From Acidimicrobiaceae bacterium (GTDB taxonomy: Bacteria > Actinomycetota > Acidimicrobiia > Acidimicrobiales > MedAcidi-G1), in assembly GCA_002726315.1 (NCBI GenBank), contig PBSS01000007.1, forward strand, positions 1-32,021: a stretch of 32,021 nucleotides of DNA, in the 5' to 3' direction. The notes under the pieces are model-generated. The model searched no databases and was not told where the DNA came from. It saw only the letters and a program-made list of their open reading frames with translations. A program made the position numbers and the translations under genes. Below are positions 4,978 to 23,458 of the stretch, piece after piece. Numbering within the stretch: the stretch's first letter is position 1; each line of letters begins with the position of its first letter.

Positions 4978-7900
4978 GTGTCTGCTCGCCCCCTTGTCCG
5001 GGAACGTTATTCATTCGGATCTCTCGAAGAAGTTCGGGAGATGCCCAACCTGATCGCGATCCAAAGGGATTCGTTCCAATGGTTCCTCGATCAGGGTATT
5101 GCCGATACGTTCCGCGATCTCAGTCCGATCACCGATTTCAGTGAGACTCTCTCTCTCGAGTTGGAGTTTGACCCCAAAGACGAAGACCTCCGGCCAGTGC
5201 CGAAGTTCACCGTTGAAGAGTGTCGTGAAAAGGACATGACCTATTCGGCCCCGATGTTTGTCCGGGCCCGTTTCATGAACTCCAACACCGGAGAAATTAA
5301 GGAACAGACCGTATTCATGGGTGACTTCCCCGTGATGACCGACAAGGGCACCTTCATCATCAACGGCACGGAACGCGTTGTGGTTTCTCAACTTGTCCGT
5401 TCACCGGGAGTAATCTTCCAGCCGGGCGAGAGATACCGCCTAAGGAATCTCTCAAAGCACCAGCTGGTGACGGGAACTATCCATCCGTACCGTGGTGAGT
5501 GGATCGAGTTCGATGTAGAGCAGAAGCCCGGCAAGGACGTGACTGCCGGAACAAGGGTTGCTCGGAAGCGCAGGCTCTCGATGTTCGTGTTGCTCCGGGC
5601 TCTCGGTTATGACGAGGAGAACCATCCCGGTTTCCTCGAGCGCTTGGTAGGCCACTTCGACTACTTGGAGGGCCAGTGGGAAAAGGATCGGCTACCCGAG
5701 GGTTGGGAAGCCGCTGTCGAAGCTAATGAGCGCAAGGCACCACAGGACGAAGCCCTGCTTGAGATCTACAAGCGTGTGCGTCCGGGTGAACCACCGTCAC
5801 TTGAGGCAGCACGTGCCTACGTTCGCAACGCCTTTTTTGAGTCCCGTCGCTATGACCTCTCAAGGGTTGGCCGCTACAAGCTGAATCGCAAGCTTGGTCC
5901 AGAGATCGAGCGCTGTGAGGAACTCTTTGGCATTGAGTTGGAGAGGCCTGATCCGGATCAGTCGGTACTCAGTCGCTCAGAGGTGCTCGCCACATGTACT
6001 TACTTACTGCACCTTGCGAAGGGAGAACCGGGCTATCGCCTAGATGATCAGGACCATTTTGCTAACCGTCGCATCCGTTCGGTCGGTGAGTTGATTCAGA
6101 ACCAGGTGAGAATTGGCCTGTCCCGCATGGAGAGGGTTGTGCGCGAGCGCATGACAACCCAAGACGTAGAGGCCATCACTCCTCAGACCCTGATCAACAT
6201 CCGGCCTGTTGTGGCAGCTATCAAGGAATTCTTCGGTACGAGCCAACTCTCTCAGTTCATGGATCAGGTGAATCCGCTATCGGGCCTAACCCACCGTCGT
6301 CGGCTTTCAGCACTCGGTCCTGGAGGCTTGTCGCGAGAGAGGGCGGGCTTCGAGGTCCGTGACGTTCACTTTTCCCACTATGGACGGATGTGTCCGATCG
6401 AAACGCCCGAAGGCCCCAACATTGGCCTTATCGGTGGTCTTGCCACCTATGGCCAGATCAACGTTTTCGGCTTCATCGAATCGCCCTACAGGATTGTCAA
6501 GAAAGGCAAGGTCACCGACGAGATTGTCTACCTAGCCGCTGATGAAGAGGAGGAGTACGTGGTGGCACAGGCCAACGCTCCCCTCAACTCCAACGGCACC
6601 TTCGCCAACCAGCGGGTCTTGGTGCGTCGTTCGCCTCAAGCGGCTTCCCTTCAGGATCTCCGCCTCCAGTTGGAACAGGATGTCTTCTTTGGTTCAACGA
6701 CAGAGATTTCCTACGTTCCGCCCGAGGAGGTCCAGTTGATGGACGTCTCTCCGAAGCAGATCGTGTCGGTGGCGACAGCCCTGATCCCGTTCCTCGAGCA
6801 CGACGATGCGAATAGGGCCCTAATGGGTGCCAATATGCAGCGCCAAGCAGTGCCGCTCATTCGATCCGAGGCCCCCTACATCGGTACTGGCATTGAAGCC
6901 CGTGCAGCCAGGGATGCTGCACATATGGTCCTTGCCAATGCTGCCGGTACGGTCACGGAGGTCGACGGCGACTCGATAACTGTCGACTACGGCAAGGGTG
7001 GAATCGTCACGCACGACCTGTCCAAGTTCGAGCGTTCAAACCAAGACACTTGCATCAACCATAAGAGCAGGGTTGTCCCGGGCCAGAAGATCAAGAGGGA
7101 CGAGTTGCTGGCCGACTCATCCTCAACCGACGGCGGTGAGTTGGCCTTGGGCAAGAATCTCCTCGTGGCGTTCATGTCATGGGAGGGCTACAACTTCGAG
7201 GATGCCATCATCCTTTCTGAGAGGTTGGTGAAAGACGACGTTCTCACGTCGATCCACATCCATGAGCATGAGATCGATGCCCGTGATACCAAGTTGGGCC
7301 CTGAGGAGATTACGCGAGACATTCCGAACCTGTCTGACGAGATTTTGGCTGACCTTGACGATCTGGGCATCGTGAGAGTTGGCGCCGATGTGTCACCCGG
7401 TGATGTCCTTGTCGGAAAGGTCACTCCTAAGGGTGAGACAGAGTTGACTCCCGAAGAACGGCTCCTTCGGGCAATCTTTGGTGAGAAGGCCCGCGAGGTC
7501 CGTGACACGTCACTCAAGGTGCCTCACGGCGAAACCGGCAAGGTCATCGATGTCAAGGTGTTCAATCGCGACGATGGCGACGAACTCCCACCCGGTGTCA
7601 ACCAGCTGGTCCGGGTATACGTAGCCCAGAAGCGTAAGATCAGCGTTGGCGACAAGTTGGCCGGTAGGCACGGCAACAAGGGTGTTATCTCTAGGATTCT
7701 TCCCGTTGAGGATCTTCCATACTTGGCAGACGGCACCCCTGTCGACATCATCTTGAATCCCCTTGGTGTTCCTTCCCGAATGAACGTAGGCCAGGTACTT
7801 GAGGCCCATCTCGGTTACTGCGCTAGGTGGGGTTGGGAGGTCAACGGTGAGACCGTTGGTGTTGAGCCCGTCAGCGGGATAGAGCGCAAGACGCGTACCT

Positions 7901-15935: not shown

Positions 15936-17126
15936 ATGGCCAAGGCCCAGTTTGAACGTAACAAGCCGCACGTAAATGTCGGCACTATGGGACATATCGA
16001 TCACGGTAAGACAACCCTTACCGCGGCAATCACAAAGGTCCTGTCGGACCGCGATCCCGACTCCACGGCATTCACGGAGTTTGACAACATTGACAAGGCG
16101 CCCGAAGAACGCGAGCGCGGTATCACGATCAATGTCTCGCACGTCGAGTACGAGACCGAAAACCGCCACTATGCGCACGTCGACATGCCCGGTCACGCCG
16201 ATTACATCAAGAACATGATCACCGGCGCGGCTCAGGTTGACGGGGCGATTCTCGTTGTGTCAGCTGCTGACGGTCCTATGCCCCAGACACGTGAGCACGT
16301 GTTGCTGGCCCGTCAGGTGGGTGTACCCAAGATCATTGTTGCCCTTAACAAGTGCGACATGGTCGACGACGAGGAACTCCTTGAGCTGGTCGAGATGGAA
16401 GTTCGCGAGTTGCTCGACGAGTACGAGTTCCCGGGCGACGACACTCCGGTGGTCCGGGTATCGGCTCTGAACGCCCTGGAGGGCGATGAGGCTGCAGCCG
16501 GTCAGATCGTGGAGCTCATGAGCCAAGTTGACGATTTCATCCCCCAGCCGGACCGTGACGTCGACAAGCCGTTCCTCATGCCCATTGAAGACGTGTTCTC
16601 GATCACCGGCCGCGGCACCGTCGTTACTGGTCGTGTCGAGCAGGGCAAGGTGAACACGAGTGACAATATTGAGATCGTTGGTCTCAAGGACACACAGACA
16701 ACGGTATGCACCGGTGTCGAGATGTTCCGCAAGTTGCTCGACGAAGGGATTGCTGGTGACAACATCGGTGCTCTCCTGCGAGGTATCGACAAGGACGAGG
16801 TGCAGCGCGGACAGGTTCTTGCCAAGCCTGGTTCGATCACGCCACACACCGACTTCGAGGCCGAGGTATACGTTCTGACGACCAAGGAGGGTGGACGCCA
16901 CAAGCCGTTCTTTTCCAACTACAGGCCGCAGTTCTACTTTAGGACTACTGACGTGACCGGGAACATCGCTCTTGCTGAGGGTGTCGAAATGTGTATGCCC
17001 GGTGATAACACCACCATGACGGTTGAGCTCATTGCTCCGATCGCCATGGATGTCGGCCTTCGGTTTGCCATCCGCGAGGGTGGTAGAACCGTTGGTGCTG
17101 GCGCAGTAACCAAGATCCTTAAGTAG
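15936..17126 (+). CDS. tuf: translation elongation factor Tu
   Basis: 396 aa; '[15 protein letters not shown]', 'NKCD', C-terminal '[24 protein letters not shown]'. Confidence 0.98.
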
Positions 17127-17139
17127 TCAGGTTCCACGG

Positions 17140-17460
17140 ATGCCAGCTGGTCAGAAGATTCGGATACGGCTAAAGGCCTACGACCACGAGGTGATTGACC
17201 AGTCAACGAGGAAGATCGTTGAGACAGTCCGTCGCACCCAGGCAGATATCAGAGGCCCAGTACCGCTTCCTACCGAAAAGCACCGGTACACGGTCATCCG
17301 AGGACCCTTTAAGGACAAGGACTCGCGGGAGCATTTCGAAATGCGCATCCACAAGCGCCTCCTGGACATCATGCAACCTTCTCCCAAGACGATCGATTCA
17401 CTGCAGAGACTGGACCTGCCGGCAGGAGTCGATGTCGAAATAAAGATCCAGCAGTCCTGA
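17140..17460 (+). CDS. rpsJ: 30S ribosomal protein S10
   Basis: 106 aa; '[28 protein letters not shown]...[19 protein letters not shown]'. Confidence 0.97.
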
Positions 17461-17553
17461 TTTCAAGGCCTTGCAGAGGCCGGATCCAGATTCCACGGAG
17501 CGAGTCGGAGGACTCCCTCAGTGGGTGGATTACTGGTTTTGCCAGTGACCGGC

Positions 17554-18744
17554 TCAGGACTCGTAGTCTTCCTTGGCGGTGTCGGCGATCTGGCGTCTTG
17601 CCGGGCGCAACTGGCGACTCCGTCGCTCTTGGCTCATTGACAACAGGTCCTCGGAGACCTCATGGCGAGGTGCGGTGGACGACAGGACCGCTTGGATCGT
17701 CGCTGCAGCTGGTAGGGCGAGCAACGCACCGATGACCCCCAGCACTGCGGCACCGGCTATCACGGATCCAAAGGCGACTGCAGCGTGTAGTTGCATGGTC
17801 TGTGAGGTGATCCGGGGTGCGAACAGGTAATTCTCAATCTGCTGGTAGACGGCTATGACTACAAGTGCCCATAGGCCATGTATAGGTTCTTCAAGTAGCC
17901 CGATCACGATCGGGATTGAACCCGCGATGTAGGTGCCTACTACCGGGACGAATTGGGACATGACACCCACCCAGAGGGCTAGTGCAAGGGGGGAGGGGAG
18001 GCTGATCACCTCAAAGGCAACCCAGTGGACGACCGTGGAGGCCAGCGCTAGGACAGTGCGGGAGAGGATGTAGCCACCCGTCTTAGAGATTGCCAGGTCC
18101 CATATTTCAAGGACTGCCTTCTGTCGCTGTTGTGGTAGTAGGGAACACACGGTCCTTCTGAGTCTTGGCCCCTCGGCCAACATGTAGAAGGCGAACAAGC
18201 CCACCGTGAAGATTTGGAACAACACGTTGACGATGGTGGTTCCAAATCGGGCCAGGTCATCGGCGACCGAACCGAGTCTGCGCGCCAAGCCTTCGTCGTA
18301 TTCGGCCCTCAGGTCGGCAGTTGCTCCTGAGATGCCGAAAGCATCCTCTAGGAACGAATCGATATCTCTCAGATAAGAGGGGACATTTTCGCTGAAAGCG
18401 GTTACTTGTTCAGCGAGCATCGTTCCAACCAGCGTCCCAAAGCCTCCGAGGGCACCCATGCCGAGGAGGAAGACAAGAGCCGTTGCGATGCCCCGCCGCA
18501 GACCTATCCGTTCAAGACGGTTCACTGCCGGTTCGAGGGCGAACGAGAGGAACACCGCCACTAGGAGAATGAGGAAAAGGGAGCGCAATGATGCAAGGAT
18601 CCCTCGCAGGTACCAAAGTGCAGCAAACCCCCCAAGAAGCATTAGGAGGGTCTTGCCCAGCCATACTGGCGGCATTGCCAAGGGGCTGGAAAACATACGT
18701 TGACCTGTGGGTTCGTTTGTTGTGCCCTCATTCGGGTGATTCAC
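17554..18744 (-). CDS. AI-2E/PerM-family membrane transporter
   Basis: 396 aa with multiple TM segments; N-terminal paired TMs, 'VVGTYIAGSIPIVIGLLEEP', 'VYQQIENYLFAPRI' and 'VLGVIGALLALPAAATIQAVL' are typical of the AI-2E_transport family; function not inferable further. Confidence 0.85.
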   Translation of the reverse strand: MNHPNEGTTNEPTGQRMFSSPLAMPPVWLGKTLLMLLGGFAALWYLRGILASLRSLFLILLVAVFLSFALEPAVNRLERIGLRRGIATALVFLLGMGALGGFGTLVGTMLAEQVTAFSENVPSYLRDIDSFLEDAFGISGATADLRAEYDEGLARRLGSVADDLARFGTTIVNVLFQIFTVGLFAFYMLAEGPRLRRTVCSLLPQQRQKAVLEIWDLAISKTGGYILSRTVLALASTVVHWVAFEVISLPSPLALALWVGVMSQFVPVVGTYIAGSIPIVIGLLEEPIHGLWALVVIAVYQQIENYLFAPRITSQTMQLHAAVAFGSVIAGAAVLGVIGALLALPAAATIQAVLSSTAPRHEVSEDLLSMSQERRSRQLRPARRQIADTAKEDYES

Positions 18745-18824
18745 CGAAGCGTGCTCCTGATCGCCACTGGTTCGAACCCCGACGCTACCGGTAGACCCAC
18801 GACGCAGGAGGGATGGCTGTTCGG

Positions 18825-18853
18825 TTGTGGGCTGGCTGGTTCGGCCGTATCGT
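18825..18853 (+). promoter_or_regulatory. Candidate rplC-unit promoter (TTGTGG-N17-TATCGT)
   Basis: -35-like 18825-18830 and TAnnnT 18848-18853 in the divergent gap between the minus-strand transporter gene and rplC. Confidence 0.3.
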
Positions 18854-18867
18854 TACCCCCTCAAGCG

Positions 18868-18999
18868 CTCTGGTGGACCCAGAGTTGCAAAACCGACGTC
18901 CGTATAGGCCTTTTGTTGTACTGCTTGAAACCGGTGCAACGGAGTGGAACCGTGCGGCACAACCAAAGTATCGCTCCGCCGGGTTTTCCGTGCGGAGCG
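18868..18999 (+). promoter_or_regulatory. Structured leader region upstream of rplC
   Basis: CTCTGG/CCAGAG stem (18868-18873/18879-18884) and CGCTCCGC/GCGGAGCG 8-bp stem (18972-18979/18992-18999) with inner CGG/CCG. Confidence 0.45.
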
Positions 19000-19069
19000 T
19001 TCGCGTGAGCGGCCGCCAAAGGTCGTTTCCGGCGGGAAGCACCCGTCGGTTCCAGTCGCAGGAGCCATC

Positions 19070-19708
19070 ATGGCAAGCAAGGCAATAGTCGGCGAGAAGG
19101 TCGGCATGACCCAGGTGTGGGATGACGAGAACCGTGTCGTTCCGGTCACCGTGTTGCGTGTGCTCCCGAACCGTGTGGTCCAGATAAAGACCATTGCCAG
19201 CGATGGCTATAGCGCCCTCCAGGTCACTTTTGGTGAGCGAGAGTTGGCCAAGTTAACTCGTCCCGAGGCAGGCCATTTCGAAGGTGCTGGCGTGGAAGCC
19301 GGTGTGAACCTGGTTGAACTCAGGGTTGATGATGTTGATGGGTACGAACTGGGTCAGGAAATCACCGTTGATTCACTAGCTGATGAGGTCCGGGTAGACG
19401 TCACCTCTGTTAGCAAAGGTAAGGGCTTCGCTGGTGTCATGAAGCGTCACGGTTTCGCTGGCCAGCGCGCGTCACACGGCGCCCACAAGGTGCACCGTAA
19501 GCCTGGGGCCGTGGGCCAGTGCGCTACACCATCTCGCGTCTTTAAGGGCAAGAAGATGCCCGGCCGTCTGGGCAACCAGCGTACGACGACCCTAAACCTG
19601 AAGGTTGTCGAGGCTGATTCTGAGCGCAGTTTGCTGCTTGTAAGGGGCTCGGTGCCTGGACCCAGCGGGGCCACAGTACTGATTCGCAACGCCGTGAAGG
19701 GTGCTTGA
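19070..19708 (+). CDS. rplC: 50S ribosomal protein L3 (start set to ATG 19070, not 18944)
   Basis: 'MASKAIVGEKVGMTQVWDDENRVVPVTVLRV...KGKGFAGVMKRHGFAGQRASHGAHKVHRKPGAVG'; AGGAGCC upstream. Confidence 0.95.
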   Translation: MASKAIVGEKVGMTQVWDDENRVVPVTVLRVLPNRVVQIKTIASDGYSALQVTFGERELAKLTRPEAGHFEGAGVEAGVNLVELRVDDVDGYELGQEITVDSLADEVRVDVTSVSKGKGFAGVMKRHGFAGQRASHGAHKVHRKPGAVGQCATPSRVFKGKKMPGRLGNQRTTTLNLKVVEADSERSLLLVRGSVPGPSGATVLIRNAVKGA

Positions 19709-19710
19709 CG

Positions 19711-20385
19711 ATGGCTGAGGTAATCATTCGTACCAGGACTGGCTCCGACAGTGGTTCGCTCAACCTTGACGATTCGGTTTTTGGGATTACACCGAATGCA
19801 GCCGTCTTGCACCAAGTAGTGACAGCCCAGTTGGCAGCACGCCGCAGTGGGACCCAAAGCACCAGGACCCGAGCCGAGGTTCGCGGTGGTGGGGCTAAGC
19901 CATGGCGTCAGAAGGGAACCGGTCGTGCCCGACACGGCTCAAGCAGGTCTCCAATCTGGAGAGGTGGAGGTGTGGCACTCGGCCCCAAGCCCCGAAGCTA
20001 CGCGCAGAAGACCCCCAAGAAGATGATCCGCCTCGCACTCAACTCGGCACTTTCGGACCGGGCGGCCGAAGGTCGGGTGGCTGTTGTGGATGCCTGGAAC
20101 TTTGAGGTTCCACGCACCCGTGACGCTGTAACTGCTCTAGAGGTCCTCAACATCGACGGACGTGTGTTGGTAGTGGCCGATCGTGGCGATGTCAACACTT
20201 GGAAGAGTTTCTCTAACCTCGGTCACGTTCACGTGCTTTCACCTGGCGAGTTGAATGCATACGACGTACTGGTCAGTGACTGGGTTGTGTTTACCCAAGA
20301 GACATTGCCAGTCGGTTCGGCACCGACGGGGCCAACGGCTCCCATCGACTCTGAGCCGACAACCGATGAGGGGGAAGAGGAGTGA
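19711..20385 (+). CDS. rplD: 50S ribosomal protein L4
   Basis: 'RGGGAKPWRQKGTGRARHGSSRSPIWRGGGVALGPKPRSYAQKTPKKM'; short acidic C-terminus; ATG 19711 preferred. Confidence 0.96.
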   Translation: MAEVIIRTRTGSDSGSLNLDDSVFGITPNAAVLHQVVTAQLAARRSGTQSTRTRAEVRGGGAKPWRQKGTGRARHGSSRSPIWRGGGVALGPKPRSYAQKTPKKMIRLALNSALSDRAAEGRVAVVDAWNFEVPRTRDAVTALEVLNIDGRVLVVADRGDVNTWKSFSNLGHVHVLSPGELNAYDVLVSDWVVFTQETLPVGSAPTGPTAPIDSEPTTDEGEEE

Positions 20386-21519: not shown

Positions 21520-21798
21520 ATGCCACGGAGTCTCAGTAAGGGACCGTTCGTAGACGACCATCTCCTCAAGAAGATTGATGCGTTGAACGAGTCCGGTGAA
21601 AAGAAGGTAATAAGGACCTGGTCAAGACGATCGACGATTGTCCCTGACATGGTCGGTCACACGATCGCGGTCCACGATGGCCGTAAGCACGTACCGGTGT
21701 ATGTCACCGAGTCGATGGTCGGACACAAGTTGGGCGAGTTTGCACCGACACGTACGTTCAGGTCGCATTCGACCCAGGAAAAGGCGGTCAACCGCTGA
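21520..21798 (+). CDS. rpsS: 30S ribosomal protein S19
   Basis: '[54 protein letters not shown]'. Confidence 0.97.
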
Positions 21799-22508
21799 TG
21801 GGTGCCACCAAGACCAACGAACGACCGGGCACCCGCGCCGTGGCACGACACATCCGTGTGTCCGCGTCAAAGACGCGTGCTGTGCTTGACCTGATCAGGG
21901 GAGAGTCCTATGGGAGGGCCACTGAGATCCTGGAGTTCTCTGAGCGGTCTGTGTCCGAGGTGGTTTCCAAGTGCCTTGACTCGGCTGTAGCTAATGCAGA
22001 GCACAATGACGAGATAAGTGCCGAGGAGCTCTATGTGTCAGCCTGCTTCGCAGACGAGGGGCCGACGCTCAAGCGTTGGCGTCCAAGGGCACGAGGCCGT
22101 GCTACGCGCATCAACAAGAGGACCTGTCACATCACGATCATCGTTAGTCGATACAGCGTCGATGAGCTCGAGGCGATGCGTGAGCGTGCAGAGTCACGAG
22201 GCAGGGTGGATTCCAGTGAGCAGGCAGCGGAATCACGCCGTCAGCGGGTCCAAAAAAGTCGTGCTGTCGAGGCTGAGGCTGAGGCTGCAGAGGAGGCCGA
22301 AGCCGCTGCCGACGGTCGAGACACCGAGGAAGCATTAGGCGAAGCAGCTGAGATTTTGCCTGAAGAGGTCACAGGCGAGGCCATCGATGAAGCGGAAAGG
22401 GCTAGTGACGAAGTCACAGATGAGGTAGCCAAAGATGCAGTCGACGAAGCCGAAGAAGATGTCGTCGATGAAGACGAGTCTGCCAAGTCCACAGAGGAGC
22501 AGGGCTGA
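21798..22508 (+). CDS. rplV: 50S ribosomal protein L22 with long acidic C-terminal tail
   Basis: 236 aa; L22 core '[36 protein letters not shown]...[25 protein letters not shown]' followed by about 110 aa Glu/Ala-rich tail. Confidence 0.95.
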
Positions 22509-23458
22509 TGGGCCAAAAGGTAAACCCGTATGGGTTCCGTCTCGGTGTAACCACCGACTGGAAGTCGCGCTGGTTTGCGACCCGCCAGGAATATGCCGAC
22601 AACATCATCGAGGACTGGAAGGTGCGTGAGTACCTGATGACCGAGTTGCCGCATGCGGCAATCAGTCGTGTCGAGGTGGAGCGTACCCGCGACCGCCTCC
22701 GCGTGGATGTACACACGGCGAGACCTGGAATTGTCATAGGTCGTAAGGGCACCGAAGCTGATCGCTTGAGGACCGGTTTGGGTGATATAACCGGGAACAA
22801 CAGGGTCCAGCTCAACATTCAGGAGATCAAGGAGCCCGAGTTGGACGCCGCCCTAATCGCACAGGGCGTTGCTGATCAACTGGCTGGTCGGATTGCCTTT
22901 CGACGGGCCATGAAGCGAGCGGTCCAGAACGCACAGAAAGCAGGTGCGCTCGGAATCAGGGTGCAGTGTTCAGGTCGCCTCGGTGGCGCGGAGATGTCGC
23001 GTACTGAGTGGTATCGCGAAGGCCGTGTTCCACTACACACCTTGCGCGCCGACGTTGACTACGGATTCCGTGAAGCCCGTACAACCTATGGGCGCATCGG
23101 CGTGAAGGTCTGGATCTACAAGGGTGACATCCTCCCCTACAAGAGCCAATTGGAGGACAAGATCACCAAAGAGGCGGCCATGGCCGTTGGCGGGACCTCC
23201 GGCCAGACCAAGCCTGGCAAGGTAGTTTCCTCGTCCGCAGCTGTCCATCGTCGTTCGACTGAAGAGGTCGTCTCTGAAAAGCAGCCGGTGGTGTCAGAAG
23301 CGCCTGATGAGGAAGTTGACACATCTGTGGAGCCGCTTCCACTTGTCAAGGAAGGTGATGCAGAGTTTGAAAAGTTGCTTGCTGAAGAGGAAGCTATCGA
23401 GGCATCCACAAGGGAGCAGCACGAAACCCCCCACTTCCGGTCCGGGGACGGTGACTGA
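22508..23458 (+). CDS. rpsC: 30S ribosomal protein S3 with extended acidic C-terminus
   Basis: 316 aa; '[24 protein letters not shown]', KH region '[15 protein letters not shown]', '[16 protein letters not shown]'. Confidence 0.96.

Follow-up and report, generated by a model that had tools for sequence, protein, structure and literature searches.

In most members of the order that contains the genome studied here (class Acidimicrobiia), gene order indicates a break in the S10 operon between rpsJ and rplC, with or without an inserted gene, and alignment with covariation analysis places a conserved two-hairpin RNA directly before rplC. The adjacency of rpsJ and rplC is among the most conserved gene neighborhoods of bacteria. 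The window, as the whole analyzed stretch is called here, comprises 32,021 nucleotides of an Acidimicrobiaceae bacterium (assembly GCA_002726315.1, contig PBSS01000007.1). We consider it likely that its features belong to a single account, in which the rpsJ–rplC junction is a boundary between transcription units, the genes from rplC onward have their own promoter and an attenuating two-hairpin leader that probably responds to ribosomal protein L4, and the AI-2E/PerM-family transporter gene at the junction is a passenger.

Gene Order at the rpsJ–rplC Junction

The following features of the window frame the junction:

15936–17126, plus strand: tuf, the last str gene upstream of rpsJ (ORF of 396 aa)
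17140–17460, plus strand: rpsJ (S10), the final gene of the str unit here (PF00338; TIGR01049, 1e-44)
17490–17545, no strand assigned: hairpins of the terminator type, in the gap where rpsJ and the transporter gene converge (fold better than shuffles, z −2.5 and −3.5 on the two strands)
17554–18744, minus strand: AI-2E/PerM-family membrane protein gene (396 aa, GTG start; PF01594, AI-2E_transport, 3e-61)
19060–19064, plus strand: ribosome-binding site of rplC, AGGAG (read from the sequence)
19070–19708, plus strand: rplC (L3), opening the unit that the leader precedes (TIGR03625, 2e-82)
19705–20385, plus strand: rplD (L4), second in this unit, encoding the proposed ligand (TIGR03953, 9.5e-70)

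The original prediction, that a minus-strand PerM gene splits the S10 operon, describes a real arrangement: all of its coordinates check, and the arrangement is repeated in other assemblies. Both junctions (rpsJ/PerM and PerM/rplC) lie within a single contig of 35,620 bp (G000:C7), and the same order on one contig is found in G096, G113, G012, G084, G052, and G034 and in 31 named assemblies (of 76 named loci). Most of the named genomes reached through the leader are MAGs of Acidimicrobiia under the labels Acidimicrobiales, Acidimicrobiaceae, Microthrixaceae, or Candidatus Microthrix. It had been anticipated that presence in all relatives would make the arrangement an ordinary lineage trait; a lineage trait it is, but one that is not universal within the order.

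An extended rplC reading frame that would start at 18944 and run through the leader was rejected, because the leader differs freely in length from genome to genome and the match of relatives to L3 begins at 19070. Among the ribosomal proteins encoded in the window, L22 (rplV, 21798–22508) matches its family over residues 14–116 of 236 only and continues as a long acidic tail; S3 (rpsC, 22508–23458, 316 aa) and L4 have acidic C-terminal extensions.

The rpsJ–rplC Boundary Across the Order

Only 13 bp separate tuf from rpsJ in the window, and the spacing is at most 50 nt in 59 of 70 loci, which supports the prediction that rpsJ is transcribed with the str genes. The hairpins between rpsJ and the transporter gene are imperfect in the window, though folding beats shuffles on both strands, and close relatives have at this site a clean hairpin followed by GUUUU. 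Across 129 loci, a strong hairpin lies 3′ of rpsJ in 75, against a mean of 14 in mononucleotide shuffles, and tails of the CGCGU(C) or CGUUU(U) type follow 31 of 72 post-rpsJ hairpins, against 4.8 expected; a terminator after rpsJ is supported by these sequence features.

In the 90 order genomes that carry rpsJ and rplC on one contig, the gap between the two has a median of 381 bp; among 88 genomes from elsewhere in the phylum the median is 35 bp. A gap of at least 900 bp occurs in 35 of the 90 and in 2 of the 88. The p value of the difference (3e-10) is to be taken as indicative, because the genomes are phylogenetically non-independent. Like the split itself and the tuf–rpsJ linkage, these distances are read directly from the assembled sequences. 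Two class members that have no leader (G162 and G174) keep rpsJ and rplC 3 bp apart. Long gaps were also observed outside the class, in four genomes of the phylum sample (G193, G213, G203, and G129; 413 to 7,799 bp).

In many other genomes of the order the gap holds varied, unrelated cargo, which includes genes for an AMP-binding enzyme, MmgE/PrpD, a molybdopterin-binding oxidoreductase, a glycosyltransferase, a TrkA-type potassium channel protein, a HipA-like protein (L058:897–2123), an M6 peptidase, and a phage-type integrase (L052:5020–6060), among others. In two genomes (G027, L234/L235; G015, L236/L237), rpsJ and rplC are on separate long contigs, each gene flanked on both sides by tens of kb; here rpsJ and the str genes have parted completely from the S10 cluster, and the leader remains with rplC.

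The Transporter Gene at the Junction

The protein encoded at 17554–18744 matches PF01594 over residues 33–355 with 207.7 bits (gathering score 34.3; 3.3e-61), and no NCBIfam subfamily model reached its cut-off for this protein. It thus passes the score of the AI-2E transporter family, and its position beside rplC is specific to the lineage. Among 118 genomes of the order, an opposite-strand transporter gene lies between rpsJ and rplC in the genome of the window (G000) and in the six genomes named above; in four more (G054, G085, G035, and G077) it is next to rplC or rpsJ at a contig break, and in G027 it is still found 3′ of rpsJ, though rplC sits elsewhere. The nearest relatives of the transporter belong to the named genomes in which the leader was found, with up to 87% identity.

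In a tree of 70 transporters, location requires 2 changes (17.6 with shuffled labels), and one clade with support of 98/95 holds all copies at the site. The two changes are read as one gain and one later exit (family f17); a single entry into the rpsJ–rplC site followed by inheritance is therefore most likely, and the PerM gene is an old passenger in the gap.

A Conserved Leader RNA Before rplC

Between the transporter gene and rplC, the window has the following features:

18825–18853, plus strand: candidate promoter TTGTGG-N17-TATCGT, in register with the order-wide TAnnnT peak
18889–19008, plus strand: conserved leader RNA (covariance model, 85.7 bits, E 2.9e-23; covariation level reached in 0 of 500 shuffles)
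18898–18958, plus strand: leader hairpin P1 (stem of 18898–18911 with 18945–18958; internal AGGCC/GGAACC conserved; helices 1 and 2, double changes in 7 of 10 pairs)
18972–18999, plus strand: leader hairpin P2 (CGCUCCGC...GCGGAGCG), terminator-like (helix 3, double changes in 6 of 10 pairs)
19000–19008, plus strand: conserved tail UUCGCGUGA immediately 3′ of P2 (from the alignment; terminators of the lineage have similar tails)

The original prediction rightly called for a promoter in the divergent gap (18745–19069) and missed the main feature of that gap, the leader RNA at 18889–19008. Read across all fetched loci, the block before rplC has the order-wide form CAACCGACGUCCG..AGGCC(variable hairpin)GGAACC..CGGCACAACCGA...CGCUCCGCCGGG(loop)CCCGUGCGGAGCG-UUCGCGUGA. 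The conserved elements of P1 are GACGUC, AGGCC/GGAACC, and GGCACAACCGA, and the alignment shows strong conservation in its loop and flanks; by folding, its stem is extended in the window by a long variable stem. In an alignment of 49 leader sequences, 96.8% of cells are paired, double changes occur in 13 of 20 pairs, and 87 cells are compensatory (double changes) against 19 in shuffles.

The covariance model finds the leader in 96 of 118 order genomes, in almost every case as a single strong copy upstream of rplC, and among exact pattern matches in the collection of named genomes the leader lies 13–94 nt before rplC at 76 of 76 loci. Two marks of an r-leader, a consistent position upstream of r-protein genes and a secondary structure supported by covariation, are both found here. 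Strong matches in a 297-genome sample of the phylum are confined to the order plus G133 and G310, which belong to the same class and have rpsJ and rplC next to the leader; elsewhere in that sample there are weak matches only, none of them near rplC. Of the 76 genomes that carry a leader, 35 have an insert in the gap, against 0 of 14 leaderless genomes (p 6e-4), a contrast softened because several genomes scored as leaderless show leader-like matches of 15–32 bits just before rplC when filters are off; only some of the genomes so scored appear to be truly without a leader.

At one locus (L170) the leader is doubled (100–215 and 5187–5290), and the transporter gene is separated from rplC by a further insert. 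The copy at rplC is intact (94.3 bits), and its retention there fits a function at rplC; the orphan copy beside the transporter gene, 5 kb upstream, scores 79.7 bits and has changes in conserved positions. The two copies flank the transporter gene and an inserted large gene (780 aa, DUF262-like by eye).

The leader family is apparently previously undescribed within the scope of Rfam 15 and the open-access literature. No family in Rfam 15, the r-leaders held there included, gave more than chance-level matches to it, and no account of an rplC leader or of this split in Acidimicrobiia was found in the main texts of open-access papers. The 2020 r-leader survey has no entry before rplC for Actinobacteria (PMC7247131).

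A Candidate Promoter and the Terminator Likeness of P2

Order-wide, TAnnnT is enriched 45–47 nt and TTG 68–70 nt before GACGTC, and it is on this positional enrichment that the promoter of the rplC unit is called; a scan with a strict sigma-70 consensus reported no site. The candidate at 18825–18853, in combination with the order-wide peak, supports the prediction of a separate promoter for rplC onward in the divergent gap. The site is upstream of the leader, and the leader should therefore be transcribed.

The terminator idea for P2 arose from a search for mimicry of 23S rRNA, in which the full leader model scored no higher than about 7 bits anywhere within 23S and gave its best match to the hairpin after the 5S gene. 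An alternative helix (P3), a would-be antiterminator in which the UUCGCGU tail pairs with the 3′ half of P2, was tried and rejected, its covariation being no better than that of shuffles; with neither 23S mimicry nor this helix, no switch is seen in the leader. The UUCGCGU tail of P2 is U-poor, whereas the rpsJ terminators of close relatives end in GUUUU. Comparable hairpins occur elsewhere in the lineage: after the 5S gene of G002, followed by UUCGCGUCC; after a tRNA gene of G074, ending in UUUUGCGUGA; and in G081, where a strong hairpin ends in UUCGCGUGC. In G089, a GCGTCC tail follows 8 of 31 gene-end hairpins and 5 of 499 others (p 6e-8, which is exploratory because the words were chosen after the hairpin tails of G089 itself had been seen). 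Such word-specific tests were used because, at 72% GC, a general profile of the tails behind gene-end hairpins in G089 is uninformative. Over 400 kb of this genome (L243–L262), gene-end hairpins were observed in which a CGCGUCC tail replaces the U-run. CGCGUCC-tailed hairpins are possibly a U-poor terminator type of the lineage, and the likeness of P2 to a terminator is supported by these comparisons.

Proposed Regulation and Alternatives

In the proposed mechanism, the str unit would run through tuf and rpsJ and end at the rpsJ–rplC junction, and the remaining genes of the S10 operon (rplC-rplD-rplW-rplB-...) would start from their own promoter with the two-hairpin leader, which lies roughly 10–200 nt ahead of rplC. 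P1, with its GACGUC, AGGCC/GGAACC, and GGCACAACCGA elements, would be the sensor, and P2 with the UUCGCGU tail an attenuator of the intrinsic-terminator type; an excess of an r-protein of the rplC unit, most likely L4, would bind the leader and promote termination before rplC. Foreign DNA would be tolerated at the junction because nothing needs transcription across it, and the antisense PerM gene would go back to one insertion in the ancestry of several families. The leader RNA probably controls the unit from rplC onward, and we infer that it does so by feedback through transcription attenuation. The likeliest ligand would be L4, since this protein is established for another leader of the same genes, which is the best guess by the rule applied in the r-leader survey for such cases (PMC7247131), and since it is encoded second in the unit. 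The most specific form of the proposal is put forward tentatively: the leader would be a new r-leader confined to Acidimicrobiia, in which P1 senses free L4 (or L3), switches the U-poor P2 terminator, and so controls the S10 unit from rplC onward, and the shift of the start would have uncoupled rpsJ and made the junction a landing site.

A less probable alternative is that the leader acts on translation or mRNA stability instead of termination, by blocking ribosome loading at rplC or by recruiting or repelling an RNase. In its favor, translational control is common among r-leaders, the tail of P2 is U-poor, and in a few genomes P2 ends only 8–20 nt before the rplC start; against it, the spacing between P2 and the start codon varies between about 8 and 192 nt, a poor fit for direct occlusion of the ribosome-binding site, and P2 resembles terminators of the lineage. 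That resemblance, and the position of P2 at a boundary with inserts, would also suit a mere insulating terminator against upstream read-through, with P1 as a 5′ stabilizing hairpin and no feedback. This is improbable: with a promoter-like site upstream of the leader, P2 would stop its own unit too; a separate hairpin already follows rpsJ in many genomes; and both the conservation of the P1 loop and flanks and the persistence of the RNA with rplC when rpsJ is elsewhere speak against it.

The framing of the original prediction, in which the transporter is the cause of the split, did not survive the comparison, as the boundary belongs to most of the order, with varied cargo or no gene in the gap. 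That its insertion split the operon and reflects a functional link to ribosome synthesis is very improbable; the gene has been kept at the site across several families after a single insertion, but long gaps, a separate leader, and a detached rpsJ are found in many genomes that have no transporter at the site, orthologs lie elsewhere in about 20 genomes, and unrelated cargo occupies the same gap. A causal role was rejected because the long gap exists without the transporter. Misassembly of unrelated segments has a negligible probability, even in a draft genome of 53 contigs and 88% completeness, because identical errors in 31 named assemblies with the same order on one contig are implausible.

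Comparison with Known Systems

An attenuating leader at a unit boundary, the preferred reading, has a counterpart in the S10 leader of E. coli, where L4 with NusA promotes premature termination and a hairpin upstream of the attenuator hairpin is needed for L4 control (PMC10931766, section 3.3). Both are structured 5′ leaders of an S10-cluster transcript (predicted here), with a hairpin followed by a terminator-type hairpin, and both units encode L4. The Acidimicrobiia leader differs in that it precedes rplC and not rpsJ, which has left the unit; in that its tail is UUCGCGU in place of a U-run; and, as far as Rfam and the covariance model show, in its unrelated sequence and structure. An L4 r-leader of Archaeoglobi, as given in Table 1 of PMC7247131, is also predicted before rplC-rplD-rplW-rplB, with L4 assigned by precedent; it is archaeal and is likened here by its description only. 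The Firmicutes S10 r-leader and the Alphaproteobacteria L2 r-leader, as described in the same source, are also found inside or before the S10 cluster, in other phyla and in positions before rpsJ or rplB.

Implications

If it is an r-leader, the RNA before rplC would add an r-leader of the S10 cluster in Actinomycetota, for which the survey lists none (PMC7247131), and its P2 hairpin is a candidate attenuator whose tail is U-poor, in bacteria of high GC content. Most of the order gave up the adjacency of rpsJ and rplC, and the visible reason would be a regulatory start that moved one gene downstream.
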